From Streptomyces antimycoticus (GTDB lineage: Bacteria > Actinomycetota > Actinomycetes > Streptomycetales > Streptomycetaceae), in assembly GCF_005405925.1 (NCBI RefSeq), contig NZ_BJHV01000001.1:496001-560000 (forward strand): a stretch of 64,000 nt of DNA. Direction: 5' to 3'. Below, piece after piece: positions 30,581 through 49,678 of the stretch (its first letter is position 1; each line of letters begins with the position of its first letter). The position numbers and the translations under genes were made by a program. The notes beneath the pieces are model-generated. The model was not told the origin of the DNA. It saw only the letters and a list, made by a program, of their open reading frames with translations, and ran no database searches.

Positions 30581-30589
30581 GGAGGCGAG

Positions 30590-32820
30590 ATGATCGGGCA
30601 AGCCATGCAGCGTGTCGACGGCCCGCTGAAGGTCGCCGGCCGGGCCGCCTACGCCTACGAGCACTGGGAGGCCGGCCAACCGCTCTACGGGTTCATCGTC
30701 GGCGCGACGATCGGCAAGGGCCGCATCATCGAGATCGACTCCGGGGACGCCGAAGGCGCACCCGGAGTGCGCATGGTGATGACGCATCGCAACGCCCCGA
30801 GCAGGGCATCCGCGATGAGTCCATTCCGTTCGAATACTGGCGCGCCCAGCCGGTGCTGACCGGCCCGGACATCCACTACTACGGCGAGCCGGTGGCACTG
30901 GTCGTCGCCGAGACCTTCGAGCAGGCCCGGGCGGCGGCCGAGCTCGTCGAGGTGGAGTACGCGGGCGGACGGGGGCGCTTCGCCTTCGCCGAGCACGAAG
31001 GTGAGGCGTACGTCCCGAAAACGGTCAACGCCGGACTGCCCACGGACACGTCGGTGGGCGATTTCGATGCCGGATTCGCCGACGCGGCGGTCAAGGTCGA
31101 CCAGCACTACACGACGCCGTATGGGCTCTCCCTGCCCATCGAACCGAACGCGTGCCTGGTGGCGCCGCGTGATGAGGACCTGATCGTCTATGTCAGCTCC
31201 CAGATCGTCGACGCGGCGCAGGCATCGATCGCCAACACGCTGCGGATCGACCCGGCGCGGGTTCACGTCTTCACCCCCTTCGTCGGCGGCGGTTTCGGAT
31301 CCAAGCTGGGCATCCACTCCGAGACGATCCTGGCGGCGCTCGCCGCCCGCGAACTGGACCAGCCGGTCAAGGTCGCGCTGACCCGGCAGCAGGTCTTCCA
31401 GCTCGTCGGCATGCGCCCCACATCGAACCAGCGGGTCCGACTGGGCGCGGAGCGCGACGGACGGCTGGCCGCCATCGCCCATGACGTCACGATGCACACC
31501 AACCCGGACGTGGAGTACGCCGAGCAGACCGCCGCCACCAGCCGCAGCCTCTATGCCGCGCCCCACCGGCTCACCAGTCACCGGCTCACGCCGCTCGACC
31601 TGCCGCGTGGCACGGACGTCCGCGCGCCGGGCGAGGAACCGGGCCTGCTGGCGGTCGAGTCGGCGATGGACGAGCTGGCCGATACGCTCGGGATGGACCC
31701 GGTCGAGCTGCGGATCCGCAATGAGCCCACCCTCGACCCCGAGCGAGGCGTGCCGTACAGCGACCGGCACCTGGTCGAATGTCTGCGCGAAGGCGCGAGC
31801 CAGTTCGGCTGGGAGCACCGCCCCGCCACTCCTGCGAGCAGGCGCGAGGGACGGTGGCTGGTCGGCTACGGGATGGCCGTGGCCATCCGGGTACATCTCC
31901 AAGGGCCGGCCGCGGCGCGGGTGCGGTTGGAGGCGGATGGCACCGCCGTCGTCCAGACGGATATGACCGACATCGGCACCGGGACGTACACCATCCTCAC
32001 TCAGGTCGCGGCCGGCGGGCTCGGTCTGCCGCCCGACCGGGTGCGCATCGAGCTCGGGCGTTCCGACAACCCCACAAGCTGGGGATCCGGTGGCTCGTGG
32101 GGCGCCGCGAACTCCAGCACCGCGGTGCACCGGGCGTGCGCGACGCTGCGCGAGAAACTGCTGGCCGAGGCGCACGACGACACGCGCTCCGCGCTGCGGG
32201 GCCTGGACCCGGCAGACGCCGTGTTCTCCGAGGGCGACGTCCGCATCGGTGGGGCGTCGGAGCCGCTGAGCGAGCTGGTCGCGCGCAACCACCCCGGCGG
32301 TGTGGAGGCGGAGGGCGAGACCCGCTTCATGGGCGATGAGCCCAACTACACCAACTACTCGATCCACACCTACGGAGCCCATTTCGCCGAAGTGGGCGTC
32401 GACGCGGACACCGCCGAGATCCGGCTGCGGCGGATGCTCGGCGTGTTCTCCGTGGGCCGCCTGCTCAACCCGAAGACGGCCCGCTCGCAGCTGATCGGCG
32501 GCATGATCTGGGGCGCCGGCGCCGCCCTCGAGGAAGAGGCCGTCGTCGACCCACGCTCCGGCGCCTTCGTCAACCGGGACTTCGCGCAATACCTGGTGCC
32601 CGTCAACGCCGACATCCCCGACGTCGAGGCCGTCGTCCTGGACGGATACGACGACAAGGCCAATGTCCTCGGCGCGAAGGGTATCGGCGAGGTGGGCATC
32701 TGCGGGGCCGGTGCGGCGGTGGCGAACGCGGTGTTCAACGCCACCGGTGTGCGTGTGCGCGACTTCCCCATCACGCTGGAGAAGCTGTTGCCCGGGCTAC
32801 CACCCATGGAGGACGCCTGA
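30590..32820 (+). pseudogene. Molybdenum hydroxylase Mo-cofactor subunit, single frameshift at about 30795
   Basis: Large catalytic subunit (YagR-like, aldehyde/xanthine dehydrogenase). It starts at ATG 30590, but the frame ends about 270 bases later. The conserved sequence continues from EQGIRDESIPFEYWRAQPV in the next frame to the stop at 32820. The break is at GCCCCGAG (30794-30801); one more C restores NAPE. Domain signs are FTPFVGGGFGSKLG (Mo-pterin contact), LPRGTDVRAPGEEPGLL, and GAKGIGEVGICGAG, whose glutamate is the catalytic base. The rest of the 740-residue protein is well preserved, so I favour a base-calling error over a dead gene. The substrate is probably an aldehyde or N-heterocycle. 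Confidence 0.85.
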
Positions 32821-32925: not shown

Positions 32926-33699
32926 ATGGACCGAGTGAGCGACATGCCCGAGATTCTCGCCCAGCCCGCGGATCCGGCCCGGGTGAATGACTACGACAGC
33001 TTCGCCGAGGCGTACTCGGCGGAAACCGAGAACAGCCTCGTGAACGCCTACTACGCGCGGCCCGCGATGTTAGCCCTCGCCGGAGACGTGGCCGGTCGCC
33101 GGGTGCTGGACGCCGGCTGCGGCTCGGGGCCGCTGTCCGCCGCGCTGCGCGAGCGCGGTGCCGTCGTCACCGGGATCGACGCCAGTGCCGGCATGCTGGC
33201 ACTGGCCAGGCGGCGGCTGGGTGACGACGTGGCCTTGCACCTGGCCGACCTGGGCGACCCCCTGCCGTTCGCCGACGGGGAGTTCGACGACGTGGTCGCG
33301 TCGCTGGTGCTGCACTATCTGGAGGACTGGGGGCCGACACTGGCCGAGATGCGGCGCGTACTCAGGCCCGGCGGCCGGCTGATCGCGTCGGTGGACCACC
33401 CTTTCGTGGCTTACACGTTCCAGGAATCTCTGCCCGACTATTTCGCGACCACCAGCTATACCTTCGACTGGGCGTTGAACGGGCAGTCGTTCCCGATGAG
33501 GTTCTGGCGCAAGCCGTTGCACGCGATGACCGGTACCTTCACCAGCGCCGGCTTCCGCGTTGCCGTCATCAGCGAGCCGCAGCCCGATCCGGCCGCCCGT
33601 GAACTGTTCCCCGACGGCTTTCATGACCTTTCGACCAAACCCACCTTCCTGTTCTTCGTCGTCGAGGTGCCGCCGTCGGCTGCCGGCTCGGACGAGTAG
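32926..33699 (+). CDS. Class I SAM-dependent methyltransferase
   Basis: 257 residues with a Methyltransf_11/25 core. Motif I is VLDAGCGSGPLSAALRERGA (about 57-76), followed by VTGIDASAGMLALARRR, the post-motif FDDVVASLVLHYLEDWG and MRRVLRPGGRLIASVDHP. ATG 32926 has no ribosome site but a TAGGCT box 11 bases upstream, typical of a leaderless start. An internal GTG at 32935 is an alternative. It converges on the polyketide operon. It could modify that product, but nothing in the sequence shows it. Confidence 0.85.
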   Translation: MDRVSDMPEILAQPADPARVNDYDSFAEAYSAETENSLVNAYYARPAMLALAGDVAGRRVLDAGCGSGPLSAALRERGAVVTGIDASAGMLALARRRLGDDVALHLADLGDPLPFADGEFDDVVASLVLHYLEDWGPTLAEMRRVLRPGGRLIASVDHPFVAYTFQESLPDYFATTSYTFDWALNGQSFPMRFWRKPLHAMTGTFTSAGFRVAVISEPQPDPAARELFPDGFHDLSTKPTFLFFVVEVPPSAAGSDE

Positions 33700-33726: not shown

Positions 33727-34029
33727 TCACGCGCCGGAGCCGCCCACGGCCGGCCGCCGGAGGCGACCGACCAGCGCGGCCATGCTCCGCGCGGTCCTGA
33801 AGTTGTCCATCTGGAGATCCGCGCCGCGCACGGCGATGCCGTACGTCTGCTCCAGGTGCACCACCAGCTCCATGGCGAAGAGCGAGGACAGCCCGCCGGA
33901 GCCGAAGACATCCGCGTCGGCAGACCAGGTTTTCCCGGTCCGCAGTTCGAGGTGGTGCAGCAGTTCCGTCTCGATGTCGCCCGGGTCGCCCAGGGGCTCC
34001 GGAACCGCCCGGTCTGATGGCATGGCCAT
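33727..34029 (-). CDS. Discrete acyl carrier protein
   Basis: 100 residues from ATG 34029, with an AGGGAG/AAAAGGG ribosome region. Typical ACP helices surround DADVFGSGGLSSLFAMELVV, in which the first serine of LSS is the phosphopantetheine site (about S48). The usual DSL triplet is replaced by GLS, a change seen in ACPs of unusual synthases. It is the last gene of the minus-strand operon, 120 bp after the Rieske oxygenase. A free ACP beside a P450 and a Rieske oxygenase could carry a starter acid or an intermediate while it is oxidised. Confidence 0.85.
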   Translation of the reverse strand: MAMPSDRAVPEPLGDPGDIETELLHHLELRTGKTWSADADVFGSGGLSSLFAMELVVHLEQTYGIAVRGADLQMDNFRTARSMAALVGRLRRPAVGGSGA

Positions 34030-34148
34030 GCCCTTTTCTCCCTCGTGCTCGTAGAAGCGCCTTCGATCCGCCCCGGGGCCTCGTCGTCCGGCCGTCGCCG
34101 GTCGAGGTCGACCGGCGACTCCGCCATCCCGTGCCCAGTCGCCCGCGC

Positions 34149-35258
34149 TCACTCCTCCGAACGGCTCACCTCGGAGCGCTCGGGCCGCGGGGGGACCAGA
34201 TCGCCCGAGGGTTCCGTGTAGAACTGCTGCGCCCACTGCCGGTACCGGCCGATCGGACCGTCGCCCTTGGCGAGCCGGGGGCGCGCGACGTGCTCCTGGT
34301 GGTGCCACATCAGCAGGTCCGCGCCGGTGTCGACACTGCCCACCCGTTGCAGGACTTCGCTGAGCAGCCGGGCCACGGGCATCACCGCCGGGCGCCCCAG
34401 CCAGTCCGGCACCCCCGGGAGTCCGTTCAGCTCCAGCTTCGTGCCGAAGCGGACCTGCATCCGCCCCGGGGCGGTCGGGGTCGCGTGGAGCATCACATAG
34501 AGGCTTCCCGCACCCGCGGGCAGGACCGTCCGTGCCGCGATGGTGGCCAGTCCGATCACCGTGAGCGTGTAGGACTGGTGGAACCCACGCATCATCGTGT
34601 TGCGCGCGGTCGCGGTGACCGTGCTGACCGGTTCCCCCGTCACCGGCAGGCCCTCGATGTCGACCTCCTCCAGACCGTGCAGGGCCGGCAGATGGCCCCA
34701 GTCGAAGGCGTTCTCGATGACGTCCTGCGGGTGACCGGCGATGTCGAACGTGGCGTGGCTGAACGGCTGCCGGGCGTCCATCGGGAAGAGCGGGACGTCC
34801 CACTGCGGGGGCATGCCGAGGGCGTGCCACCACACATAGACCGCGCCGTTGGCCTCGCATACCGGGTACTGCGTGAGCGACGCCTTCGGCGGCGGCTGGT
34901 CGTAGCCCGTGCGCACACAGGCACCGGACGGGTCGAACGCGAACCGGTGGAAGGGGCAGACGATGTCCTCGCCCTCGACCGATCCGCCGACGCCGAGATG
35001 GGCTCCGAGGTGCGGGCACTGGGGCCGGACCGCCCGCAGCACGCCCTTGGCCGTCCGGTAGAGGACGACCTCGGCGCCCGCGAGCCGCCGGGTGGTGAGG
35101 GACCCGGCCCGCAGCTCGTCGCTGAAGGCCAGGCAGAACCACCCGTTCGGGTAGGGCCGTGAGGCAGCGTGCAGGGTGTCGGCCGGCTCCGCGGCGTGCA
35201 GGCTGATCTCCCGGGAGCCGAGCAACTGCTTCACCAGGGGCTTGAGGTGAGGCCTCAT
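34149..35258 (-). CDS. Rieske non-haem iron oxygenase
   Basis: 369 residues. The Rieske centre is C81-x-H83 and C101-x2-H104 (CPHLGAHLG and CPFHRFAFD). The mononuclear iron site appears in ENAFDWGHLPALHG, a D-x2-H-x4-H motif at D186, H189 and H194. The size and lack of a beta subunit suit the single-component KshA/cholesterol-desaturase-like branch that hydroxylates or desaturates aliphatic rings and chains. It needs an external reductase, which is not present here. The start is 4 bp after the P450 stop, so both are surely co-expressed and probably act on the polyketide in sequence. Confidence 0.88.
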   Translation of the reverse strand: MRPHLKPLVKQLLGSREISLHAAEPADTLHAASRPYPNGWFCLAFSDELRAGSLTTRRLAGAEVVLYRTAKGVLRAVRPQCPHLGAHLGVGGSVEGEDIVCPFHRFAFDPSGACVRTGYDQPPPKASLTQYPVCEANGAVYVWWHALGMPPQWDVPLFPMDARQPFSHATFDIAGHPQDVIENAFDWGHLPALHGLEEVDIEGLPVTGEPVSTVTATARNTMMRGFHQSYTLTVIGLATIAARTVLPAGAGSLYVMLHATPTAPGRMQVRFGTKLELNGLPGVPDWLGRPAVMPVARLLSEVLQRVGSVDTGADLLMWHHQEHVARPRLAKGDGPIGRYRQWAQQFYTEPSGDLVPPRPERSEVSRSEE

Positions 35259-35262
35259 GAGA

Positions 35263-36723
35263 TCACTTCCCGTGCTTCACCGGGCAGGCGGCGGCGCCCG
35301 GCTGGGTGGACGGCTGGACGGAGGCGGACAGCGGTGCGGCGGCGCTCCGTTCCGCGTCGCCGGCGCCGGAGGGCCGCCGCTCGGTGAGCCGCAGGCGCAG
35401 TCCCCGTGAACTCAGGCTGGTTTCCACCTTGGGCTGGAACGGCTGGTCGCCGACCGGGGTCAGCTCCCAGCGCTCGACGATGGCGGTCAGCGCCAGGATG
35501 GCCTCGGTGAGGGCGAACTGGTCCCCGATGCACTTGCGGGCACCGGCGCCGAACGGGATGTAGGTGGCCCGGTCGGGCTGGGCGTCGAGCCAGCGGTCCG
35601 GGTCGAACCGGTCGGGCTCGTCGTAGAGGTCGGCCCGGCGGTGCAGAAGGTAGGGGCTGAGCACGATGGTGCTGCCGCCCTTGAACCGCACGCCGCCCAG
35701 TTCGGCGTCCTCCCGGACGACACGGGTCATCATCCAGGCCGGCGGATACAGCCGCAGCGTCTCGGTCACCACCCGGGAGGCCAGGCCGAGCGAGGGCAGA
35801 TGCGCGGGGTCGAGCTTCTTGCCCGCCAGGACCCGGTCGGTCTCGGCCTTCAGACGGTGCTGGACGTCCGGGTTCGTCGCGAGCAGGTGCAGCGCCCAGG
35901 CCAGGGTGATGGCCGTGGTCTCCATGCCGCCGAGGAAGAACGTGAGGGCCTCGTCGGCGAGTTCGGCGTCGTTCAACTGCCGTCGGCCGTCCTCGCTCTC
36001 CTCGTCGACCGCGGCGACCAGCGTGGAGAGCAGATCGGCGTGGTCGGTGGGATCGGCCCGCCGCTCGGCGATGATCTCCGCGATGGTGGCGGCCAGCCGG
36101 GTGCGGGCGTCGTCGTAGCGCCGCTTCTGCCGGGTCGGCAGGCGCCGCAGCAGGGCCGGCGTCATCATCCGGCGGAAGAACGCGCTCACGATCACCGCGG
36201 TGTCGGCCAGGCACCGTTGCATGGTCTCCGCCGGCAGCGCCCCGCTGAACATCGTCTCCATGGTGGCCCGCGTCGTGAGCGTCATCATCTCCTGGGTGAC
36301 GTCGAGGACGTCGCCGTCCCGCCAGGAGCCCGCCTTGGCCGCGGCCGCCCGCGCGAACACCGCACCGTACCCGGCGAGGCGGGTCGGGTGGAACGAGGGC
36401 TGGCACAGCCGGCGCTGCCGCCGGTGCAGGGGGTAGGCGCAGGTGGACAGGCCGTCGCCGATCACCTCGCGGATCCGGTCGTAGATCGGGCCGCCCTTGT
36501 CGAAGGTCCGGTCGTTGAGGAACACCTGCCGGGTCAGGTCGGGGTCGCAAATCATCACGGCGGAGCTCGGGCCGAGCCGGACGCGGACCATCTCGCGGTA
36601 TCCGGACAGCGACATGATGAACGCCAGCGGATCACGGAGCAGCGGCAGCGCGTGGCCCAGCAGCGGCCACGCCCGCGGGGCGAGCGGCACCGACTCGGCC
36701 GAGGCCGTACTCGTGTCTGTCAT
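35263..36723 (-). CDS. Cytochrome P450 of the polyketide operon
   Basis: 486 residues from ATG 36723, preceded by GTGAGG. The I-helix reads FFLGGMETTAITLAWAL (oxygen-binding G-x-E-T-T). The ExxR pair is in VVTETLRLYPPAWMM. The PERF-like region is DRFDPDRWL, and the haem loop is IPFGAGARKCIGDQFAL with the ligand cysteine. Length and the unusual C-terminal tail (ending AACPVKHGK) resemble pentalenene-oxygenase-like CYPs more than the 400-residue CYP105 type. No ferredoxin gene is near. Tightly packed between the KAS III and Rieske genes (8 and 4 bp gaps), it is a likely tailoring enzyme. Confidence 0.9.
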   Translation of the reverse strand: MTDTSTASAESVPLAPRAWPLLGHALPLLRDPLAFIMSLSGYREMVRVRLGPSSAVMICDPDLTRQVFLNDRTFDKGGPIYDRIREVIGDGLSTCAYPLHRRQRRLCQPSFHPTRLAGYGAVFARAAAAKAGSWRDGDVLDVTQEMMTLTTRATMETMFSGALPAETMQRCLADTAVIVSAFFRRMMTPALLRRLPTRQKRRYDDARTRLAATIAEIIAERRADPTDHADLLSTLVAAVDEESEDGRRQLNDAELADEALTFFLGGMETTAITLAWALHLLATNPDVQHRLKAETDRVLAGKKLDPAHLPSLGLASRVVTETLRLYPPAWMMTRVVREDAELGGVRFKGGSTIVLSPYLLHRRADLYDEPDRFDPDRWLDAQPDRATYIPFGAGARKCIGDQFALTEAILALTAIVERWELTPVGDQPFQPKVETSLSSRGLRLRLTERRPSGAGDAERSAAAPLSASVQPSTQPGAAACPVKHGK

Positions 36724-36731
36724 GGGGAACC

Positions 36732-37751
36732 TCACTTCTTCGTTGAGTGGCCGGCCGACACCGCGGTGACGGGATCGCGGGTGATCTCCAGCAGCGCGGT
36801 GGTCCAGCGGAAGCCGAGCCCGAAACTCACGACGAGGACCCGTTCTCCGGCCCGCAGCGTGCCGGAGCGGAACTCCCGGTCGAGCGCGAGCAGGACGTCA
36901 CACGGTCCGCAGTGGCCGAGGTGCCGGCCGAAGGTCCAGCTGGTGTCGGCGGCCCGCAGGCCCAGCGGCGCACCGCCGAGCAGCAGGTCGAGCACCTCCG
37001 ACCCGATCGCGATGGGCAGCACACGCGCGATGCCCTCCGGGCGGACGCCGGTCTCCTCGAGGACGGTCTCGACACAGCGGCGCGTGGACTGCCGCAGCGC
37101 GTCGATGTACGGCATGAATCCGGTCTCCTCGACGAGGAGCGGCCGGCCGCTGCCGTCGGGCGCCGTCCGGGCCCGGGTCAGCACCTCCAGCTGCGGCTGC
37201 GCGGCCTGATCGGTCGCCAGCAGCCGTGCGAAGCCCGTCCCCCGGGTGAGGACGGCGGCGGCGCCGGAGTCGCCGGCCAGATGCCCCATCTCCGAGACGT
37301 GGCCCCACCGCTCGGGCCGGAACCGGACACCGGCGGTCACCAGCGCGGCCTTCGCTACCGGTTTGGCGGTGAGGTGTTCGGCCGCGGTGACCAGCGCGGC
37401 TCCCCCGCCGTCGCTGGCGGCGCCCAGCTCGATCGCGTTGGTGTCCGGCCCGCCGAGCACCCGCAGCAGATAGGCGGAGGGCGCGTAGTGGTCCTCGTCC
37501 TGGAAGTTGGCGTGCACCAGCAGGCTCAGGTCGGCGCCCGTGACGTCCGCGTGGCGCAGTGCCTTCAGGCCGGCGCGGGCGGCCATCTGTGACGGCGTGC
37601 TGTCCGTGGAGACGGCGGCCGAGGTGAATCCGTTGAGCGCGACCAGGGAGGGCGGCCCGTTGTCCACCGGCTTGTCCCACGGCTCGTGTTTCTGCCGGAT
37701 CGGCGGTATCCAGGAACCGGTCCCGGCGATCGTGATGTCCTGCCACAACAC
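36732..37751 (-). CDS. KAS III-fold acyltransferase with Ser-His-Asp site (CerJ/DpsC-like)
   Basis: About 339 residues from GTG 37751, which has GAGGAG six bases upstream; an in-frame GTG at 37772 lacks one. The fold is thiolase/FabH. By alignment in the head to FabH, the nucleophile cysteine is serine (ELGAASDGGGAAL, S113), the histidine of the PHQAN segment is isoleucine (RVLPIAIGSEV), and the asparagine position is histidine with an aspartate five residues later (HLGHCGPCDVLL, H280 and D285). CerJ and DpsC, as I recall them, have His and Asp with the same spacing, and DpsC has the serine. The protein should therefore transfer an acyl group, as starter or as ester, rather than condense chains. 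Confidence 0.85.
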   Translation of the reverse strand: MLWQDITIAGTGSWIPPIRQKHEPWDKPVDNGPPSLVALNGFTSAAVSTDSTPSQMAARAGLKALRHADVTGADLSLLVHANFQDEDHYAPSAYLLRVLGGPDTNAIELGAASDGGGAALVTAAEHLTAKPVAKAALVTAGVRFRPERWGHVSEMGHLAGDSGAAAVLTRGTGFARLLATDQAAQPQLEVLTRARTAPDGSGRPLLVEETGFMPYIDALRQSTRRCVETVLEETGVRPEGIARVLPIAIGSEVLDLLLGGAPLGLRAADTSWTFGRHLGHCGPCDVLLALDREFRSGTLRAGERVLVVSFGLGFRWTTALLEITRDPVTAVSAGHSTKK

Positions 37752-37796
37752 TGCTGTCTCCTCGGCTGTCACGAATCGGCTGTCAGGACCCGGCTG

Positions 37797-40700
37797 TCAG
37801 GAACGGACCGGTCGTGGCGCGTCGCCGCGGGGCCGGACGAGTTCTCCGCTGTGGTCCAGGGCGTGTGCGCTGACCCCGGATATCCGGGCCAGCACCCGCC
37901 CGTCACCGGTCAGCGCGGTCAGCTCCCCGGTGGCGAAGTCGCAGTGCAGCCTGATGACCGGATGCAGCGCGCTGAGCCGACAGTCGTCGCCCGGCCCACC
38001 CAGGTCGACCTCGTCGAGGCCGGCCATCGGCCCGACCAGCGGTGGAAGGTCACCGCGCGGCGGCAGCAGCAACAGGTGCACCATCGCGTCCAGCAGGATC
38101 GCCGGTACGGTCATCCCGGCCAGGACCGGAGCCCAGGCGGCGTGGTCCAGACGGAACCTGGCGCTGTTGCCGTCCGGCCCGCGGGCGTAGTCACCGGTGC
38201 CGGCGAATGGTCCGGTGAGCGAGATCGGCGGATCCGGGGAGTACACCGGCATCGCGAAGTCGGGCTCGGGTTCGTGGCCGGAGAAGTCGGGTGGTCCGGC
38301 GAGCACCGGGAAACGGTCCGCGAGCAGCACCCGCGTCTCGCACAGCAGGTCGTTGAAGCGCAGTACCTTGCCGTTCTTGCCGATCCGGTGTGCCGTGATC
38401 CTCACGGCCACCTCGGCGCGGTCGCCCGCACGGCTCACCACCCGGGCCTCCACCGCGACGCTGCGCATCGGCCCGGCGAGCCGGACCGTGATCGACGACC
38501 GGCAGACGAGACCGCGGAACCCGGTGACCCGCAGTCCGGGACAGAGGGTGGCCGCCGCCGCGGCCGCCGCCTCCAGGGTGAACGTGCCCGCGAGCGTGTA
38601 CTCGCCGTTGACCTGGTGATGACGCATCCACCGCCCGTCCCGCTCGGCGAGGGTGCCCGGATCCCAGGTCTTGGTGAACACGGCCCAGTCGTCGCCCCGG
38701 TACAGCACGCCGTCGAGCAGCGGCGTGGTCAACTCCGGGTCCGGCGGGGCCGGATCCGGCGCGTCCGGGGCCTCGATCCGCGGTTCGACGCGGGAGCCGT
38801 GGGTGCTGATGCCGCGCCGGGCCAGCAGGACGCGTTCCTCCTCCCGGATGAAGAACGCCACTCCGTTCGCCGGCGGCCGGGTCACCGCGGACAGGAACTG
38901 CGCACGTCCCTGCGCGGTGCTGATGTAGGCGTCCATCTTGTTGCGTTTGAGGGTCTCCCGCATGGTGACGCTGCTGGCGACGCCGACCTCGCGCCAGCCG
39001 CTCCACAGGACCGCGATCTCGTGGCCGCCCGCCGGGCCGTGCCGCTGTGCCCTGGCGCTCGCGTACGCGAGGTACTCGTTGACGGCGCAGTAGTCGATGT
39101 CGCCGGGCGCGGGGGCGAGCGTCGCCAGGGTGCTGAAGTTGCACCAGATCCGGGGCGTGTGCCCGGCCAGGGCCCGCTTCAGGTTGCGGTAGCCGGTCGC
39201 CTTGGTGGCCCGCACGGCCCGGAAGTCCGTGAGGGTCTTGGCGTGCAGGGCGCGCGAGCGCAGGTCGAGGACGGTGTTGATGAGCAGGTCGATCCGCCCG
39301 TGCCGGTCGAGGATCTCGCCGATGACGGCGGTGGTGCGTTCGGCGTCGAGGACGTCGCACACGCGGTGGTGGACCCGGTCCGGGCCGCACAGCTCCGCCA
39401 GCCGTCGCACCGTACGGCGCACCTCCAGGCGCGCCTCGGCCTTCTCGTAGGCGACGCGCAGCTCGCGCACGGAGGCGTCGGGACGTCGTCGGCGCTCGGC
39501 GGCCATGAACTCGGCCTGCGATGGCAGCGAGTCGTCGGCATCCGGCAGCGGGGTGCGGCCGATGACGTACACAAACGGCCGGTCGGTGCTGTTCGCCACC
39601 TCGTGCAGCAGCTCGGGAGTGATCCCCCGGGCGCCACCGAAGGCGACCACGACCGCCCCGGAGGGCAGCGGGACGCCATCGGACGGGGACACGGGGTCGT
39701 CGGCCACGGCCAGGGCCAACCAGTCGTCCCCGCGGCAGGCCAGCGTGTGGGTCGGCACCTGGGCTGTGCCCGCCCGCGCCAACTGGTCCAGCGCCGCCGC
39801 CGCGTCCACCGCGTCGCTGATCAGGGTCAGCCCGCCGCACTGCGGCACCTCGGCCCGCACGGAGCGGACGAGACCGGTGAACAGCCCGCTCAGCGGGGGC
39901 GGCAGATCGTCCGGCACCTCTCCGAGCAGCAGCGCGGCGAGCGAGCCGCCGGAGCGCAGCGCGGGCAGCGCCGCCTGGAGCGTGGTGAAGGCGAGGTCCT
40001 GGAGGTCCTCCACCCGGGCGGCCTCGGCCTCCTCGTACCCGCCGTCGTCGACCGGCAGCCGGGACAGCACCCGGATGTGGCGCGGGACGAACGGCAGGCC
40101 GGTCAGCGCGCCGGGCGCGTCCTCGGGCGGGACATGGGCGGTGCCCGCGATGCCCGGCCGCGGTGACCAGACGGCGGTGTCCGGGCCGGTGACCACGGCG
40201 GCGAGGTCCGGGGCGTCGGTGATGACGACGGTGCCCGGCGGGATCGACGGCGTGGCGGGCTCGGCCGGCGGCGGGCCGGTCGGCACGAGGCGGAAGGTCT
40301 GACGGCGGCCGGTGAACTCCTCGGTGTGCTCAGCCCCGTCCTGCTCCGACCCGGCGTGCTCCGACTGGACGGGGGCCGGGTCGGCGTGCCCGGATCCGGT
40401 GTGCGCGGGTCCGGTGTGCGCGGACCCGGTGTGCGCGGACCCGGTGCGTTCTGGGTCGGCGCGTTCGGGTTCGGCCTGTTCCGAGCCGGTGAGCGCGTCC
40501 CGCAGGCCCGCGGGCGGGGTGAACCGGATCAGCGGCGAGCCGGTGGCGGCAGGCCGGACCACGGTGTCCGTCTCCGTGACGACGGCCTTGAGAACCGTCA
40601 GCAGGGCGTCCAGGGAGAGATAGGTGTGTCCGGTGCCGGCCAGTACGGGAAGGGCGTGCGAGGGCGTGACCGGGTGCCGGGGGTCGGCGACGGCGACCTC

Positions 40701-43700
40701 GGTGGAGAGCGTGCCCAGGACGGGAAGTCCGTGCTCCAGCGCGGTCGAGCGCCGGGTGACCGCCAGGACCGCGGCGCCCTCCGCGATGGACCGGCCCTCC
40801 GGCACCAGGTGGGCGAGGTGCCGGTCCCAGCCGCTGATCGGCCGCAGACACACGGCGCCGATCAGGGCGAGGTCGCAGGCCCGGTGCCGGAGTTGACGCA
40901 GGGCCAGGTCGACGGCCGTGTGCGCGGAGTCCCGCTGGGAGTAGACGCTGGTCCCCAGGCCCTGGAAGTCGTAGTAGTTGGCGGCCCGGCCCGACAGGAT
41001 GCAGGAGACCGCGCCGGTGAAGTCGTCCTCGTTCAGATCGCCGGGGATCACTCCCTTGGCCTCCGCCATGCCCTTCTCGAGGTACTCCTTGAGCACCTGG
41101 GCCTGCGCCGGGTCGGGCAGCAGGTCGAACGCGGTGGCGCACTCGGCGGCGTGCACCCGCAGCGCCGCCTGGGTGTTGTGCGTGGTCGGCAGCGTCGAGC
41201 CCATCACGATCGCCGTGGTGGGCCGTAGGCTCGTGCCCGGCTCGCCGAGCCGCTCCAGCAGCGGGCCCAGCGCCTGGAGCACCATCAGGTGGGCGGCGTC
41301 CATGTGCCGCATCGTCAGCGGCGGGATGCGTACATCACGCGGCGAGGGCAGGGGGTACGGCGTGCCGAAACCGGGCTCCGGGAGCGGCCCGTCGCCACGG
41401 AGCCAGGCGGGCACCTGGTCGGGCTCCATGCCGGGAAGATGGGTGTTCCAGCCGACGACGACCAGGTCCTCCCTGTCGTCGCGCACATCGACGCCCCGCC
41501 TCCGCGCGGGGACGGACCGTGGCGCGTGGTCGGACAGGACCACATGCGCGTCCGCCCCGCCGAGGCCGAACGACGACACCCCGACGACGCGCGGTCGCGC
41601 CCCGTCGGCCGGCCAGGGGGCGTCCTTGACCGGCACGGTCAGCCGCTCGCCGTCGCCCAGCAACGGATGCGGATCGGTGACCACGGGCTGGCCGGGCACC
41701 GCTCCGCGTTCGAGGGCGACCAGCGCATGTGCGACCGAGACCAGGCCCGCCAGTACCCCGGTGTGCCCGAAGACCTGCTTGTTCGACGTCAGCAGACACG
41801 TCCGCTCGCCCGGCCCGAGCCGGGACAGCAACGAGCGGAGCTCGATCTCGTCGCCGACCGGCGTCCCGGTGCCGTGCGCCACGACCCAGTCCACGTCGTC
41901 GGCCTCGACGCCCGCGTCGGCCCAGGCACGGGCGATCGCCAGCTCCTGCCCGCGCGTGGCCGGGGCGTGGATGCCCTTGCCCCGTCCGTCGGCGGCGAGT
42001 CCGGTGCCCCGGATGACGCCGAGCACCCGGTCGCCGTCCGCGACGGCCCGCGCGTACGGCTTCAGAACGAGCGCGACGGCGCCCTCGCCGATCAGGGTCC
42101 CGTCGGCCGCCCGGTCGAAGGGCCGTACCCGGCCGCTCATCGAGATGCCCTGGGCCCGGCAGAAGAGCGTGAACCCGATTGGCTCGATCACCGAGGTGCC
42201 GCCGGCCAGCGCCACGTCGCAGGAACCCTCGCGCAGCGCCTTGACCGCCGCGTCCAGGGCGAACAGTCCGCTGGCGCAGGCCGCGTCGAGGGTCAGGTGC
42301 TGTGTGTCACCGGGGATCAGCCCGCGTAACGCGTTGCGGACGACGGACGCGGGCAGGTAGGACTGCGGGTCGCCGCCGTCACCGCCGTACTGCGCGCTGA
42401 TCGCGTGGTCGGCGAGTTCCGCCAGCCAGTCACCGTCCCGGTCGGCGGGGATCGCCTCGCGCACCATGCGCCGGTACTCGTCGCCGAGGACGATGCCCTG
42501 GGGGCCGAGCCCGGTCTGGTCGTGGATGCCGGTGGTCGCGGTGAGCCAGCGGTCCGTCGGACGCCGGCGCACCCCCGCCAGCGCCTGGACGGCACAGTGC
42601 CGCAGCCAGCGGGTGGTCCGCGGCCAGCCGGGGTGTCCGATGTTCCCGTCCGGTTCGGCGATCGAGGCAGGGTCCGGCACGAAGTCGTGGAGGTATCCGG
42701 CCTCGCGGACGTAGAAGGCGTCGGTCTCCTCGCGGGTGGGAGCCCAGAAGTGCTTCAGGTCGAAGGCGGACGGCTCGCTGGAGAGCAGGACGCCCTCCCG
42801 CAGCCGGTCCCAGAACTCCGCCGTGTTGTTGGCCCCGGGCAGTGCCAGGCCGAGTCCGACCACCGCGACGGCGCCGGGATCCGCCTCGGCCGACGCCGCG
42901 TCCGGCACCCCGTCCGGCACCTCGGCCGACACCGGGGTCACCGCTGGTCGGGGTGGTGGGGGCGGTGCGGGTACCGGTGCGGCCGCGGATGGTGCGGGGG
43001 CTGACGGCGCGGGGGCGGAAAGCGCGGTCGCGGGCGGCGCGGTGGCCGGTACGGCCGCGGAAGGCGCGGACGCCGACGGCGCCGACGCCGACGCCGACGC
43101 CGACACAACCGGGCGGCGCACGGGCTTGCTCACCTGGTCGGCCAGTCTGCTGTGCAATCGCAGGCCCTGCATTCCGCCGATGCTGATACCACCGTCGGCG
43201 ACGAGGGTCTGCCCGGTGATGAAACCGGCGTCCTCGTGGAGGAGGTGCACGATCAACCGGGCCGCCTCCGGCGTCGAGAGGGTGCGGTTCATCAGTTCGT
43301 CGGCCACGTCCGTGCCGCCGAACGTCGCCGGACCGTCGAGGTTCACAACGATCTCGCTGGCGACGGAGCCCAGCAGCACGGTGTTGACCCGGATGCCCTG
43401 GCCGACCAGTTCCAGCGCGAGATAGCGGACCAGCGACTCCAGGGCCGCCTTGGTGACACCACCGGGACCGTAGCCCGGAACCGGCTGGTGCGCCCCGACG
43501 CTGGACAGGCAGAGGATGCTCGCGCCCTCGCGTCCCGCCATCAGCTCGGCCGCCCGGCGTGAACAGTGGTAGGCCGCCATCACGTTGGTGGACCACGCCC
43601 GCTGCCAGTAGGTGTCGTCGATGTCGAACAGGGGCAGGAACGCCCCGCCCGCGGCGTTGTTGATCAGGATGTCCAGGCCACCGTGGCGCTCCTGGACCAG

Positions 43701-43934
43701 GTCGAACATCCGGTCGATCTCGCTGGTCTTGGCCACGGAGGCGCGGATGAACTCGCAGCTGTGGCCGTCCTGTTCCAGTTCCTCCTGGAGCAGCTTCGCC
43801 TGGTCGACCGAGTGGAAGTAGTTCACGATCACATGGGCGCCGCCCCGCGCCAGGCGGCGCACGATGTCCGCGCCGAGACTCTTCGCGGCGCCCGTCACGA
43901 GGGCGACCTTGCCCCGCAGGCTGTCGTCCGTCAC
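37797..43934 (-). CDS. Iterative polyketide synthase: FabL-type ER, KS, Cys-less KS, KR, DH
   Basis: 2045 residues from GTG 43934, overlapping the AT-ACP stop (GTGA) behind GGAGG. (1) Residues 1-262 form an SDR domain with VTGAAKSLG and Tyr-x6-Lys in GYGPGGVTKAAL, the spacing of enoyl-ACP reductase FabL. (2) An Ala/Pro linker runs to 353. (3) KS, 355-805: C553 in LDAACASGL, H687 in VAHGTGT, H724 in SNKQVFGHTG. (4) A second KS-like domain, about 824-1145, lacks the cysteine (GLGTSVYSQRDSAHT), like a chain-length factor. (5) A linker with HTGSA repeats. (6) KR, about 1425-1720: GGARGIT, S1601, Y1615, N1619. (7) DH, about 1745-2030: HHQVNGEYTLAG and LDAMVHLLL. It has no AT, ACP or thioesterase of its own. 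KS plus inactive KS recalls PUFA synthases. Confidence 0.9.
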   Translation of the reverse strand: MTDDSLRGKVALVTGAAKSLGADIVRRLARGGAHVIVNYFHSVDQAKLLQEELEQDGHSCEFIRASVAKTSEIDRMFDLVQERHGGLDILINNAAGGAFLPLFDIDDTYWQRAWSTNVMAAYHCSRRAAELMAGREGASILCLSSVGAHQPVPGYGPGGVTKAALESLVRYLALELVGQGIRVNTVLLGSVASEIVVNLDGPATFGGTDVADELMNRTLSTPEAARLIVHLLHEDAGFITGQTLVADGGISIGGMQGLRLHSRLADQVSKPVRRPVVSASASASAPSASAPSAAVPATAPPATALSAPAPSAPAPSAAAPVPAPPPPPRPAVTPVSAEVPDGVPDAASAEADPGAVAVVGLGLALPGANNTAEFWDRLREGVLLSSEPSAFDLKHFWAPTREETDAFYVREAGYLHDFVPDPASIAEPDGNIGHPGWPRTTRWLRHCAVQALAGVRRRPTDRWLTATTGIHDQTGLGPQGIVLGDEYRRMVREAIPADRDGDWLAELADHAISAQYGGDGGDPQSYLPASVVRNALRGLIPGDTQHLTLDAACASGLFALDAAVKALREGSCDVALAGGTSVIEPIGFTLFCRAQGISMSGRVRPFDRAADGTLIGEGAVALVLKPYARAVADGDRVLGVIRGTGLAADGRGKGIHAPATRGQELAIARAWADAGVEADDVDWVVAHGTGTPVGDEIELRSLLSRLGPGERTCLLTSNKQVFGHTGVLAGLVSVAHALVALERGAVPGQPVVTDPHPLLGDGERLTVPVKDAPWPADGARPRVVGVSSFGLGGADAHVVLSDHAPRSVPARRRGVDVRDDREDLVVVGWNTHLPGMEPDQVPAWLRGDGPLPEPGFGTPYPLPSPRDVRIPPLTMRHMDAAHLMVLQALGPLLERLGEPGTSLRPTTAIVMGSTLPTTHNTQAALRVHAAECATAFDLLPDPAQAQVLKEYLEKGMAEAKGVIPGDLNEDDFTGAVSCILSGRAANYYDFQGLGTSVYSQRDSAHTAVDLALRQLRHRACDLALIGAVCLRPISGWDRHLAHLVPEGRSIAEGAAVLAVTRRSTALEHGLPVLGTLSTEVAVADPRHPVTPSHALPVLAGTGHTYLSLDALLTVLKAVVTETDTVVRPAATGSPLIRFTPPAGLRDALTGSEQAEPERADPERTGSAHTGSAHTGPAHTGSGHADPAPVQSEHAGSEQDGAEHTEEFTGRRQTFRLVPTGPPPAEPATPSIPPGTVVITDAPDLAAVVTGPDTAVWSPRPGIAGTAHVPPEDAPGALTGLPFVPRHIRVLSRLPVDDGGYEEAEAARVEDLQDLAFTTLQAALPALRSGGSLAALLLGEVPDDLPPPLSGLFTGLVRSVRAEVPQCGGLTLISDAVDAAAALDQLARAGTAQVPTHTLACRGDDWLALAVADDPVSPSDGVPLPSGAVVVAFGGARGITPELLHEVANSTDRPFVYVIGRTPLPDADDSLPSQAEFMAAERRRRPDASVRELRVAYEKAEARLEVRRTVRRLAELCGPDRVHHRVCDVLDAERTTAVIGEILDRHGRIDLLINTVLDLRSRALHAKTLTDFRAVRATKATGYRNLKRALAGHTPRIWCNFSTLATLAPAPGDIDYCAVNEYLAYASARAQRHGPAGGHEIAVLWSGWREVGVASSVTMRETLKRNKMDAYISTAQGRAQFLSAVTRPPANGVAFFIREEERVLLARRGISTHGSRVEPRIEAPDAPDPAPPDPELTTPLLDGVLYRGDDWAVFTKTWDPGTLAERDGRWMRHHQVNGEYTLAGTFTLEAAAAAAATLCPGLRVTGFRGLVCRSSITVRLAGPMRSVAVEARVVSRAGDRAEVAVRITAHRIGKNGKVLRFNDLLCETRVLLADRFPVLAGPPDFSGHEPEPDFAMPVYSPDPPISLTGPFAGTGDYARGPDGNSARFRLDHAAWAPVLAGMTVPAILLDAMVHLLLLPPRGDLPPLVGPMAGLDEVDLGGPGDDCRLSALHPVIRLHCDFATGELTALTGDGRVLARISGVSAHALDHSGELVRPRGDAPRPVRS
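40391..40450. repeat. Four 15-bp repeats in the PKS linker
   Basis: CGG(A/G)(T/C)CCGGTGTGCG units at 40391, 40406, 40421 and 40436 (the last diverged). They encode a HTGSA/HTGPA five-residue repeat in the linker between the second KS-like domain and the KR. The frame is kept, so unit number can vary without breaking the protein. Confidence 0.8.
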
Positions 43935-45463
43935 CCGGCGGCCTCCGCCCGGCCCTGTACGACGCCCTCGGCGATCCGGCGCAGCGTACCGGCGGTCAGC
44001 AGCGAGGAGTTCGACCTCAGATCGGGCAGGTCGTACCGCTCGGAGACCCGGCCGAGCAGGGTGACCTGCTTGAGCGACTCCACGCCCAGCTCGGACTCCA
44101 GACCGTCGTCCTCGCCGAGCAGGTCCGGCGGGTAGCCCAGGAAGTCACCGTAGAGCGTACGCAGCTCGGCCAGCACCGTTTCGTAGTCCAGCCCGGCGGA
44201 CGGCGGGGCCACCGCGTCCACCGGAGGTGCCGGTGTGACAGGAGCCGCTGGAGCCTGGGCGGTTGCCGGAGCGGGCGGAGCGCAGGAGATGACTGGACCG
44301 GCCGGGACGGGCGGAGCGGGGGCGATGACCGGAGCGGCCGGGACGGGCGGAGCGGGGGGCTCCGCGTAGGGCGCCGGGGCGGCGGGCACGGAGACCCGGG
44401 CCGGCGCCTCGACGACGGCGACGGCCGAAGGCGGGCCGGCCGGCTCGGGCGCGCTCACCCGCGCGGAGGGCAGGATCCTGTCGCCCGGCCGCGCCGACGG
44501 GCGCGAGGAGAACGCGCCGATCGCCGTGGTGTCCTCGGCCAACGCCCGGACGGCACCGACCGGATCGCTCTCGCTGAGCGGTACGACACACCGCACACCC
44601 GGGACCGACGACTCGACGAACTTGGTGACGACGGGCCACTCCCCGCACTCGACGAAGACGTCGGCACCCGCCGCGTGCAGGTCGCGGACCGTCTGCAGCA
44701 TCCGGACCCGGGCGGTGAGCGCGCCGGCGACCAGGTCGACCGGGTCGTCGTCGCCGACGTCGCGCCCCAGCCAGGGTGAGCGCACGCGCCAGCGCCCGGA
44801 ACCGTACGCGACCCTCGGTGCGGTCGTGCGGAGATCCCGCGCGGCCTGCGCCATCGCCGGAGTGTGCGTCGGGTGCGGGACATCCAGGGGAAGGCTCGGC
44901 CAGCCGAGCGCGTCGGCCACCCGCTCCACATGCCGGATCAGTTCCTCGGGCCCGCTGATGACGCTCTGTCGAGGGGCGTTCTCGCAGGCCAGCACCAGGT
45001 GGGGATGGTCGATCAGCCCGGCGAGCGACTCCGCCCGGCGACCGTCCACACCGACCGCGAGCATCTTGCCCCGCCAGCTCTGCCGGGTCAGCGCCTGGGA
45101 CCGGGCCACGGCCAGGCGGGCGGCGTCCTCCACCGGCAGGTGGCCCGCGGCGGCGAGGGCCCATAATTCCCCGATGCTCTGTCCGACGATCGCGATGGGC
45201 TCGACGCCTTCGGCGACCAGCATGTGGTGCGTCGCGAGGCTGACGGCGAAGATCTCCAGATACTGGACCTCGGGACCGCGCCGGTCGCTCGTGCCGTCGT
45301 CCTCGATCAGCCTGGTGCTGATGTCGGGCAGTCCCAGGCCCCCGGCTGCCTTGTCGATGCGGGACAGCGCGTCACGGACGGTCTCGTAACGGTCGTAGAG
45401 GTCGCGAAGGACGCCCCCGCGCGGAGCGGCCACAGTTCCGGGCATGACGAAGACAGCATCCAC
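43931..45463 (-). CDS. Acyltransferase-ACP protein of the polyketide synthase
   Basis: 510 residues from ATG 45463; an AGGTGG precedes it closely. N-terminal acyltransferase (1-about 300): VFVMPGT replaces the usual VFxFPGQ, the nucleophile elbow is IVGQSIGELWA (S96), and the histidine region is VPHPTHTPAMAQAA. The extender-specificity motif is not a standard malonyl or methylmalonyl type. A Pro/Ala linker (about 320-420) follows. The C-terminal ACP carries ELGVESLKQVTLL, where the serine takes the phosphopantetheine. Translationally coupled to the large synthase, it provides the AT and ACP missing there. It is the first gene of the operon, so the promoter lies upstream of 45463. Confidence 0.88.
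   Translation of the reverse strand: MDAVFVMPGTVAAPRGGVLRDLYDRYETVRDALSRIDKAAGGLGLPDISTRLIEDDGTSDRRGPEVQYLEIFAVSLATHHMLVAEGVEPIAIVGQSIGELWALAAAGHLPVEDAARLAVARSQALTRQSWRGKMLAVGVDGRRAESLAGLIDHPHLVLACENAPRQSVISGPEELIRHVERVADALGWPSLPLDVPHPTHTPAMAQAARDLRTTAPRVAYGSGRWRVRSPWLGRDVGDDDPVDLVAGALTARVRMLQTVRDLHAAGADVFVECGEWPVVTKFVESSVPGVRCVVPLSESDPVGAVRALAEDTTAIGAFSSRPSARPGDRILPSARVSAPEPAGPPSAVAVVEAPARVSVPAAPAPYAEPPAPPVPAAPVIAPAPPVPAGPVISCAPPAPATAQAPAAPVTPAPPVDAVAPPSAGLDYETVLAELRTLYGDFLGYPPDLLGEDDGLESELGVESLKQVTLLGRVSERYDLPDLRSNSSLLTAGTLRRIAEGVVQGRAEAAG
44288..44359. repeat. Two 36-bp direct repeats in the AT-ACP linker
   Basis: Near-identical units beginning GATGAC(T/C)GGA lie at 44288-44323 and 44324-44359. 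They encode a repeated PPVPA(A/G)PVI segment of the flexible linker between AT and ACP. Confidence 0.75.
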
Positions 45464-46518
45464 CTGTGCATCACCCTCATTTCGGTCCCGGCCTCCGGCG
45501 AGGCCTCATCCGCCGACCGGGCTCCGAAACGCCATGACGGCGCGACAAAGCCCTCGGCAATACGTTCACTTACTGCGCTATACCGGAGTGGTGGGTCCAA
45601 CGAAATGGACCCCGGGCAGAAATTCGTTTCCCTGCGCATTTCGCGTCGTTCAGGGCCCGCATTTACGGTATCTGGGCATCTTCCGGAGCGGCAATGATGT
45701 TCAGGCAGCTAGTTTCAGCCTAAATCGATCATGCATTTCAATTTAGCCAATCACCCGCAGGCACCCTTGCCGCCACGCGAGGTCGCATGCTACTCCCGGC
45801 CGCCCCGCCGTAAGTACTGCCACCTTAGGGCCACTTGCTCCCGATTTACTTTCGGACATTCGTGCATGATTCAACCGCACAGTCGGCATGCCGTGCCGAT
45901 CCGACATGACCGGGGCCGGTCACACGGCCGACGTCGGTCGTATACCGTGGCCCGCCCGGTCCAGCCCGTCCGATACGTCCACCATTTCGACATTCGGCCA
46001 ATCAGCCGGCCCATGAGGCGGGGTCATGTTTACCGGCGACACCGCCGAACCACCACCGGAACGGCGCCTTTTCGGCGGCGGCCCGCAGGCCATGACCGTG
46101 GCGCCGCGATGACCTGATTCCGGCGGCGGAGACAAGCCGATGCCCGGCAGGCCGGGGGAACCGTCGTCGAGACCTGCGATTCGCCATGGCGTTCGGGCAG
46201 GTGAGGACGCCGACCACGGAACGGAGCGACCACACCCGCCTCGGTCACCGGATCCTCCTCGGCCACGGACGGGTACGCGGCGCGGCCTCCGGCCATCGAC
46301 GCGTACGCGGACGCGCGCATCCTGCCTACGACAGAGACAGAAGCCGCTGGGGCAGCGAAACAACGGTTTCGCTCGGCTGAATGACAGGTCGAGATAGTGG
46401 GTCCCGGCACGGCCCGAAACGTCGGCCACGAATTGTCACTTACCTCTATCAGAGGGCAACGGATCCGCGACGACGGGCAGCCGCACGCGCGACGTTCCGT
46501 AATAGGACCGGCCACCGC
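45464..46518. other. Long non-coding region upstream of the polyketide operon
   Basis: About 1050 bp with no credible gene on either strand. Between about 45540 and 45970 the base composition is visibly less GC-rich than the flanks. It must hold the promoter of the AT-ACP/PKS operon. On the minus strand TTGCCG and GATACC boxes 16 bp apart (around 45675-45705) are one candidate. No regulator gene, RNA gene or repeat array is evident. Confidence 0.6.
45592..45611. promoter_or_regulatory. Inverted repeat upstream of the polyketide operon
   Basis: GGGTCC and GGACCC flank an 8-base AT-rich spacer (AACGAAAT), 129 bp upstream of the AT-ACP start. It is the clearest symmetric element in the promoter region and could be an operator for a pathway regulator located elsewhere. 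Confidence 0.4.
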
Positions 46519-47965
46519 TCAGCGGGATGCGCGAGCCTCCCAATCAGGCGTCTCGCCCTTGGGCTTGGGCGGTACGCAGAACCATGCGAGACCCGCGGCG
46601 GCCAGGTAGGCGAGCGCACCGATGGCCATGCCGGTGCGCAGCCCCTCGCCGTAGTCGGCAGCCGTGGCCAGCAGGGTGCCACCGAGTGCCACACCGATGG
46701 CGCTTCCGAGTTGGCGGGTGGTGTTGAACAGGGCGGAGGCGGTCCCCGAGCACGCCGCGGGCGCGGCGCCCATGACGGTGGAGGTGGAACCGGTGAGCGC
46801 GAAGAGGTACCGAATCCCGCAACCATCATCGGGGCCACCAGCAGCGGGTAGGCGGGCTCAACTCCCGCCGCGACCCAGCCGGCCGGCCCCAGGCCCGCCA
46901 GAAGCATGCCGGTGAACACCAGCGGACGGTCGCCGGTCGTACGGGCCGGCCGCCCGGACAGTACGGAGGCGAACATGGTCATCGCCACCGCGGGGAACAG
47001 CGCCAGGCCGGTGACGAGGGCGCTGTAGCCGCGCTGGTGCTGGAAGTCCAGGCTGGCGGTGAACACCATGCCGTAGAAGCCGAAATTGAACAGCAGGCCG
47101 ATGACGGCTCCGCCGCCCAGCGCACGCGAGCGCAACAGGCTCGGCGGAACGGCGGGCGAGTGGGCCAGCCGCTCGCGCACCAGGAACGCCATCGCGGCCA
47201 GGACGGACAGACCCACCCCGGCGAGGACGGCCGGATCGGACCACCCACGCCGGCCGGCCTCGTTGAGCGCGGCGGTCAGCGAGGCCACCGCCGCCACCAC
47301 CGCGCACTGCGCCGGCCAGTCCACGGCCCGGCCGGTGAGCCGGTCGGAGGGTGCCACATGGCGCAGCGTCAGCACCGGGCAGGCGACGCCGACGGGCAGG
47401 TTGATGAGGAACACCCACCGCCAGCCCACGGTGGAGACCAGCAGCCCGCCCAGCAGCGGCCCCGCCGAGGCCGCGATGCCCGCGATGGAGCCCCAGACCC
47501 CGAATGCCCGCGAGCGGGCGGCCGCAGCCGGATACGCCTGCCGGAGAAGGGCCAGCGAGCCGGGCACGATCAACGCCGCACCGAGGCCCTCCACCACTCG
47601 GGCAGCGACCAGGACAGGAGCGCTCGGCGCGAAGGCGCACGCGGCCGAGGACACGGTGAACACCGCCACGCCGGTACAGAAGACCGGCGGTTTCCCAGCC
47701 TGTCCCCCAGCGCACCGCCGCTCAACAGGAACCCGGCGAAGACCAGGGTGTACCCGTCGGTGATCCACTGGATGCCGGTGAGCGAAGCCGACAGCTCCCG
47801 GCCGACCACCGGCACGGCCACGTTGATGACCGTCACGTCCAGGATCACCATGAAGTACCCGGCACACACGGCCAGCAGCGGGACCCAGGACCGCATGCCG
47901 GACACCGGGCCGGACTCAGGGGAGGAGGCGGGCTCGCCGCCACCGGCCGACTCCGCGAACGCCAC
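46519..47965 (-). pseudogene. MFS drug-efflux transporter (EmrB/QacA type), two frameshifts
   Basis: A 14-helix-type exporter readable in three frames. GTG 47965 leads through SWVPLLAVCAGYFMVILDV and GYTLVFAGFLLSGGALGDRL. After a lost base near 47685 comes VFCTGVAVFTVSSAACAFAP to LAPMMVAGFGTS adjusted (about 46830). After a second lost base near 46804 comes GAAPAACSGTASALFNTTRQ to the stop at 46519. Motif C-like TRQLGSAIGVALGG and the antiporter signatures are preserved. Each break is cured by one base, so the gene may be intact in the organism. It is the nearest transporter to the polyketide operon and could export its product. Confidence 0.82.
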
Positions 47966-49595: not shown

Positions 49596-49638
49596 ACCCG
49601 GAGGCTAGGCGAAAGCCCCCCACCGGCAGAACGGCCTT

Positions 49639-49678
49639 CGCCGACAGCAGACCCGGCTCGCCGACAGCAGACCCGGCT
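49639..49678. repeat. Perfect 20-bp tandem duplication at the dehydrogenase stop
   Basis: CGCCGACAGCAGACCCGGCT occurs twice in direct succession (49639-49658 and 49659-49678). The second copy touches the stop codon of the alcohol dehydrogenase. Perfect identity suggests a recent slippage or duplication event. Confidence 0.85.

Follow-up and report, generated by a model that had tools for sequence, protein, structure and literature searches.

Six minus-strand genes at 33727-45463 of a 64,000-nucleotide stretch of Streptomyces antimycoticus DNA (contig NZ_BJHV01000001.1; the whole stretch is called here the window) encode what looks like a reducing polyketide synthase (PKS) accompanied by two oxygenases and a free acyl carrier protein (ACP), and they raise the question of whether they form a new biosynthetic system. 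An earlier note on this DNA had taken them for an undescribed cluster and for the best candidate for a new system in the window. Judging from sequence comparisons, the locus is almost certainly the galbonolide (rustmicin/neorustmicin) biosynthetic cluster gal/gbn, which is already characterised, with a published knockout and heterologous expression. A known system is seen here, whose extender cassette has decayed in this lineage. A false lead is thus removed, the best new-system candidate of the window being a known antifungal cluster. Galbonolide is a 14-membered macrolide; S. galbus is its producer in the literature, and rustmicin is produced by Micromonospora.

Identity of the locus

All six open reading frames (ORFs) were found where the earlier note had placed them (Table 1). 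Their codon usage is that of coding sequence and their order is kept in other genera, which argues that the arrangement is not due to chance. With the longest starts, the intergenic gaps from galA to the ACP gene are -4, 24, -4, 4, and 119 bp. The gaps of -4 and 4 bp given earlier thus stand, those of 45 and 8 bp fit later start codons, and that of 120 bp becomes 119 bp; the earlier start of galC yields an N-terminus common to most aligned homologues. The domain reading of the earlier note also agrees for most domains with our Pfam and NCBIfam searches, which recovered acyltransferase (AT) and PP-binding domains in GalA, a FabL-like SDR, a ketosynthase (KS) and a ketoreductase (KR) in GalB, ACP_syn_III_C in GalC, P450 in GalD, Rieske and KshA_C in GalE, and PP-binding in the sixth product. 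The dehydratase (DH) of GalB is a weak match, and its Cys-less ketosynthase-like domain (KS0) is profile-based.

In a protein search in which identities were scored for the candidates sharing most words with the query, GalB was 98% identical to a S. antimycoticus protein and 96% identical to a S. melanosporofaciens protein, both full-length, and its best local alignment with E5DHQ1, a "beta-ketoacyl synthase" of S. galbus, showed 90% identity over 83% of the query. From these sequences, the host is a Streptomyces whose nearest protein matches come from S. antimycoticus and S. melanosporofaciens. A scan of genome contigs with GalB returned 36 loci. In 19 of them, including Micromonospora loci, galA to galE occur in the same order and on the same strand, and an ACP gene lies downstream of galE in all 19 (in one of these, L001, galA is interrupted at the contig end). 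The gene order thus recurs in other actinomycetes and matches a characterised cluster, so that the cluster can no longer be called undescribed. A Pseudonocardia locus (L020) has A to E at 56-60% identity with an extra P450 and no matching ACP, and contig ends fall inside the cluster in two further loci (L008 and L025). GalC occurs at 71% identity or more in 11 of the 392 sampled Streptomyces genomes, that of the window counted. Among the matches listed in a plasmid search with GalB, two records cover at least 80% of the query, at 84% (H1, Streptomyces sp. NBC_01237) and 32% identity.

Kim is said to have described in 2014 GalA-C as a single-module highly reducing PKS, GalD as a P450 and GalE as a Rieske protein. 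The earlier note expected an iterative reducing synthase with an oxidised product, and galbonolide fits this. According to the passages of the sources cited here, inactivation of gbnB in Streptomyces sp. AgN23 (GCA_001598115.2), a member of the S. violaceusniger clade that makes galbonolide A, abolishes all detected galbonolides (A, B, E, and G), and a figure legend lists gbnA-E plus the methoxymalonyl set gbnH-K (PMC11463028). Also in these passages, galABCDE is sufficient for galbonolide B whereas galGHIJK is required for A, and the geldanamycin producer Streptomyces 11-1-2 carries the galABCDE core and is reported with galbonolide B (PMC11074319); expression of the cluster in S. coelicolor gave galbonolide B (passages of PMC8724576 and PMC6693128), and a similar cluster is reported in an ant-associated Pseudonocardia (passages of PMC5183585). 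Of the adjacent galG-K set, which concerns galbonolide A only, the window holds the ACP gene and the scar of one other gene, that of the 3-hydroxyacyl-CoA dehydrogenase (HADH).

Some points weigh against the galbonolide assignment. We infer that E5DHQ1 is GalB from its sequence, species and paper titles; gene order was compared with that of relatives, the S. galbus locus itself lying outside the comparison; the structure model of GalC is poor (pLDDT 64.9); and galbonolide production by this strain is a prediction.

Table 1. Features of the galbonolide-type locus and of its surroundings (positions in the window).
Feature	Coordinates	Strand	Size and basis
galA homologue: acyltransferase (GQSIGE) and C-terminal acyl carrier domain (GVESLK)	43931..45463	-	510 aa; Pfam, gene order
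galB homologue: FabL-like ER, KS, Cys-less KS0, KR, DH (weak Pfam match)	37797..43934	-	2045 aa; Pfam, NCBIfam
KS domain of GalB, about residues 357-801	41532..42866	-	Pfam, PDB sequence match, conserved residues
KS0 (chain-length-factor-like) domain of GalB, about residues 825-1137	40524..41462	-	alignment, profile
galC homologue: KAS III-like protein, Ser120/His287/Asp292	36732..37772	-	346 aa; nearest solved structures DpsC, ChlB3, CerJ
galD homologue: cytochrome P450	35263..36735	-	490 aa; Pfam, NCBIfam, gene order
galE homologue: Rieske oxygenase (CPH...CPFH), KshA-type C-terminal domain	34149..35258	-	369 aa; Pfam, gene order
HADH deletion scar (methoxymalonyl cassette)	34030..34148	-	tblastn E 2e-6; blastn 71/86, E 1e-21
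Intact stand-alone ACP of the methoxymalonyl-ACP cassette (GSGGLSSLFAMEL)	33727..34029	-	100 aa; Pfam PP-binding
MFS efflux gene	46449-47867
Alpha/beta hydrolase and alcohol dehydrogenase	48912-50787
TetR regulator and another P450	50920-52862
Molybdopterin dehydrogenase pair	29537-32820
Methyltransferase	32926-33699	+

The synthase and its predicted pathway

The N-terminal SDR domain of GalB carries Tyr155-x6-Lys162, both residues being invariant in the 13 aligned proteins, and we take this motif to be of the enoyl-reductase (ER) type; its best enoyl-ACP reductase match in NCBIfam is FabL, with a score under the curated cut-off, and it matches PDB 3oic. The KS residues Cys553, His687, and His724 are invariant in 17/17 aligned proteins. 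At the nucleophile position of KS0, none of these 17 has a Cys, the stretch reading SQRDS, AHRDS, GGLDS and similar; in the window it is YSQRDSAHTA at the place of DTACSSGLTA in an active KS. Pfam called no separate KS0 domain in GalB. A profile of the 17 KS0 stretches matched, besides ketosynthases, PDB 6riw in its second KS-like half (residues 537-699), with some catalytic KS domains scoring equal or higher, and the GalB KS matched the first half (residues 4-478). The likeness of the KS-KS0 pair to polyunsaturated fatty acid (PUFA) synthases pointed out in the earlier note is thus borne out. The predicted structure of the pair has a mean pLDDT of 88.8 and a pTM of 0.93. The assignment of the DH is weak because it depends on conserved His residues and on a PKS-DH Pfam match of 23.9 bits, under the cut-off of 27; at an E-value of 0.01, no PDB sequence was matched by the C-terminal DH stretch.

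By sequence, the nearest solved structures to GalC are DpsC (4xs7, E 9e-32), ChlB3 (7eqi) and, lower down, CerJ (3s3l). GalC and its counterparts in galbonolide-type clusters share at least 60% identity and stand apart from the next full-length proteins, at about 40%. Ser120, His287 and Asp292 are invariant in the 10 aligned proteins; Ser120 aligns with the Ser of DpsC, and His287 and Asp292 with its GH..GGGD stretch, whereas the His of the DpsC motif VVLPHMG aligns with an Ala in GalC. We take this His to be the residue numbered 266 in the literature on DpsC. The available passages of PMC9573744 describe a ChlB3 mechanism through Cys113-His296-Asp301, with the His296-Asp301 pair also present in CerJ, and a His266-His297 pair in DpsC. 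GalC thus carries the signature of the CerJ/ChlB3 type (a nucleophile and His-x4-Asp, with no second catalytic His), its nucleophile being Ser and not Cys. Since Ser, His and Asp are present and the second catalytic His is absent, GalC most likely transfers an acyl group to an oxygen or to a carrier in the manner of CerJ and ChlB3 (release/lactonisation or shuttling) and would not form a C-C bond. A DpsC-like condensing or starter-selecting KAS III remains a serious although less probable reading: DpsC is the top PDB hit and has a Ser nucleophile like GalC, but the presumed His266 is replaced by Ala in GalC and the His and Asp, five residues apart, of CerJ/ChlB3 acyl transfer are kept.

With GalC taken as an acyltransferase, a pathway can be proposed. 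GalA (AT-ACP) would load extender units, and GalB (KS-KS0, ER, KR, DH) would build the chain iteratively with variable reduction, which is the published reading and fits the domains found here. GalC would release or lactonise the chain, or shuttle acyl groups; from family and literature, GalD (P450) and GalE (Rieske) would then oxidise the macrolactone. The sixth gene encodes the ACP of the methoxymalonyl extender route. The locus alone should yield galbonolide B because the local extender-making enzymes are deleted, and galbonolide A would need methoxymalonyl from a second, complete cassette located 2.2 Mb away.

The carrier protein and the loss of its cassette

In the relatives, galE is followed by HADH, ACP, an acyl-CoA dehydrogenase (ACDH) and FkbH, then by an O-methyltransferase (OMT) on the opposite strand, which together are the methoxymalonyl-ACP cassette. 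In the window, HADH, ACDH, FkbH and OMT are deleted and the ACP gene is the sole cassette gene left. The 119-bp gap between galE and the ACP gene is a scar of HADH: 86 columns are 83% identical to the HADH DNA of L001 (71/86, blastn E 1e-21), a further 16 of 17 bases match the 3' end of the same gene (blastn E 0.001), and HADH gives a tblastn match (E 2e-6). The ACP gene, directly downstream of this scar, occupies the carrier position of the cassette in relatives, and several of its relatives are named methoxymalonate biosynthesis (acyl carrier) protein in their source annotations. A passage of PMC6395733 lists galbonolides among the clusters with a five-gene methoxymalonyl-ACP subcluster. The free ACP counted by the earlier note as a member of the cluster is present and intact, and is better described as the carrier of the methoxymalonyl cassette than as a core component.

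The extent of this loss was followed in 26 distinct genomes, obtained from sets of 12 and 18 after merging four that were identical by coordinates (G411=G435, G139=G445, G284=G447, and G396=G440); the genomes of the two cut loci L008 and L025 are left out and that of L020 was searched apart. The local FkbH is lost in 9 of these 26 galbonolide-type genomes. The four genes deleted in the window are also missing in the close relatives G423, G055 and G204 (gaps of 119-120 bp) and G189 (52 bp), and HADH, ACDH, FkbH and OMT are also lost in G135. G431 (L012) has an internal HADH deletion, a fused ACDH-FkbH remnant and no OMT, L011 has lost FkbH, and FkbH and OMT are absent from the stretch examined in L006. 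Mapping the loss on a GalE tree with 26 rows takes five parsimony changes, and well-supported branches force at least three of these. All nine loss genomes keep an intact ACP, GLSSL motif included. In the five close genomes, its pairwise dN/dS is 0.07-0.46 and its pooled pN/pS 0.29 (vs 0.17 for GalE), which points to selection since the deletion if the latter was shared by descent; the pN/pS of 0.50 in intact loci was obtained on pairs that have diverged further and should not be set against 0.29. We found no description of repeated cassette loss with ACP retention in the open-licence literature that was searched. As a separate case, L010 and L111 (G440/G396) have HADH, ACP, ACDH and FkbH intact, with no OMT in the downstream stretch examined.

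The genome of the window (11.17 Mb, 3 contigs) carries a second complete cassette, OMT-FkbH-ACDH-ACP-HADH, beside modular PKS genes at C1:2717431-2721624 (FkbH at C1:2718214-2719290), 2.2 Mb from the locus. A thioesterase-like piece was seen at the edge of this stretch (G000:C1:2702503-2721624; L069, L070). Another FkbH of at least 330 bits, a threshold for methoxymalonyl-like FkbH set after the scores were known, is present in 9/9 loss genomes vs 2/17 with an intact local FkbH (Fisher p 1.8e-5), or in 5/5 vs 2/17 with the five-genome clade taken as one (p 8e-4). When every FkbH above the family cut-off is counted, the figures are 9/9 vs 7/17 (p 0.0039) and, with the clade collapsed, 5/5 vs 7/17 (p 0.040). 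Clade and genome size are confounders of this contrast: the rows are related rather than independent, and eight of the nine loss genomes are Streptomyces of 10.4-12 Mb. ACP and ACDH genes adjoin the other FkbH in all seven loss genomes inspected at that place (all but G437 and G441), and OMT or part of HADH lies beside at least one FkbH copy in each of these seven. No FkbH and no matching ACP were found in the Pseudonocardia locus L020 or its assembly.

The co-occurrence of an intact ACP and another strong FkbH in 9/9 loss genomes, together with L020, which is without both, suggests as a working hypothesis that the galbonolide ACP is charged in trans by a foreign cassette. That several lineages have lost the methoxymalonyl-ACP enzymes of the galbonolide locus and kept its own ACP, now charged by the cassette of another polyketide cluster, has in our view about an even chance of being correct. 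Against it, the contrasting case is a single genome (L020); L010/G396, with neither a nearby OMT nor another FkbH, is not explained; and the passages of PMC11074319 on strain 11-1-2 report galbonolide B without mentioning A as detected. The retention of the ACP in the nine genomes without local FkbH, and the purifying selection on it in the five close genomes (pooled pN/pS 0.29), would also be expected if the galbonolide synthase had it as a core component, required for galbonolide B too and kept for that reason. We consider this rather unlikely, because the galbonolide-type cluster of L020, one genome only, has neither a matching ACP nor FkbH, because another FkbH of at least 330 bits accompanies every loss, and because galABCDE suffices for galbonolide B in the passage cited above (PMC11074319).

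If charging in trans does occur, the dependence of one biosynthetic cluster on the extender unit of another could be tested at this locus, which would show that the carrier protein is the component a cluster has to retain for itself. In genome mining, the absence of galG-K from a cluster would then not preclude galbonolide A.

Surroundings, wider family and known systems

The flanks of the locus are collinear with stretches of three related Streptomyces genomes (G423, G055 and G204), to which they are about 90-97% identical in DNA. The methyltransferase gene between the ACP and molybdopterin dehydrogenase genes looks like a local insertion or replacement since it is unmatched at that place in both genomes compared (G423 and G055). 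Pfam detected no further PKS part among the ten flanking ORFs, and neither tandem ACPs nor a PfaD-type reductase in these or in the six genes, as the earlier note had stated for the latter two.

More distant actinomycete pairs of AT-ACP and ER-KS-KS0-KR-DH genes were found at about 29-42% identity in L015, L016, L021-L024, L027, L030, L032, and L034. L015 and L016 have A-B-C at 35-42%, and the eight others have A and B only (about 29-40%), with no galD or galE match in these distant loci except a P450 at 31% in L027; four loci with a partial GalB match (L031, L033, L035, and L036) were left out of further comparison. Full-length GalB-like proteins occur at 33-34% identity in Burkholderia and Methylocapsa. 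Unexplored products may lie in this wider AT-ACP and ER-KS-KS0-KR-DH family. In L020, an extra P450 resembling pentalenolactone synthase lies between galC and galD (L020:16601-17962), which suggests a differently oxidised product. The distant members of the family listed above are what could favour the view of the earlier note that the locus of the window is a divergent relative making a new, non-galbonolide oxidised polyketide, but this is highly improbable given that GalB shares 90-98% of its residues with proteins of S. galbus, S. melanosporofaciens and S. antimycoticus, that A-E are co-linear with 19 other loci, and that, in the passages cited, the same gene set yields galbonolides in a violaceusniger-clade strain (PMC11463028) and galABCDE accompanies galbonolide B in 11-1-2 (PMC11074319). 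A new PUFA-like or fatty-acid-like system is ruled out by the identity and synteny with galbonolide-type clusters.

Among known systems, the KS-chain-length factor subunit of PUFA synthases (PDB 6riw, "ORF10", presumably Moritella PfaC) shares with GalB an active KS followed by a Cys-less KS0, but the window has single ACPs, with no tandem ACPs or PfaD, and an SDR-type ER, KR and DH in one protein. GalC is related in sequence to the KAS III-like enzymes DpsC, ChlB3 and CerJ, with nucleophile, His and Asp in register, and differs from them in combining a Ser nucleophile with the absence of a second His. The ACP of the window sits where the carrier sits in methoxymalonyl-ACP cassettes of the FkbG-K type, although the four other genes are gone here and a complete paralogous cassette lies 2.2 Mb off. 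Finally, the window has the same core gene set as the gal/gbn cluster in the available descriptions from S. galbus, AgN23 and LZ35, from which it differs in having no local HADH, ACDH, FkbH and OMT, only their ACP being left.

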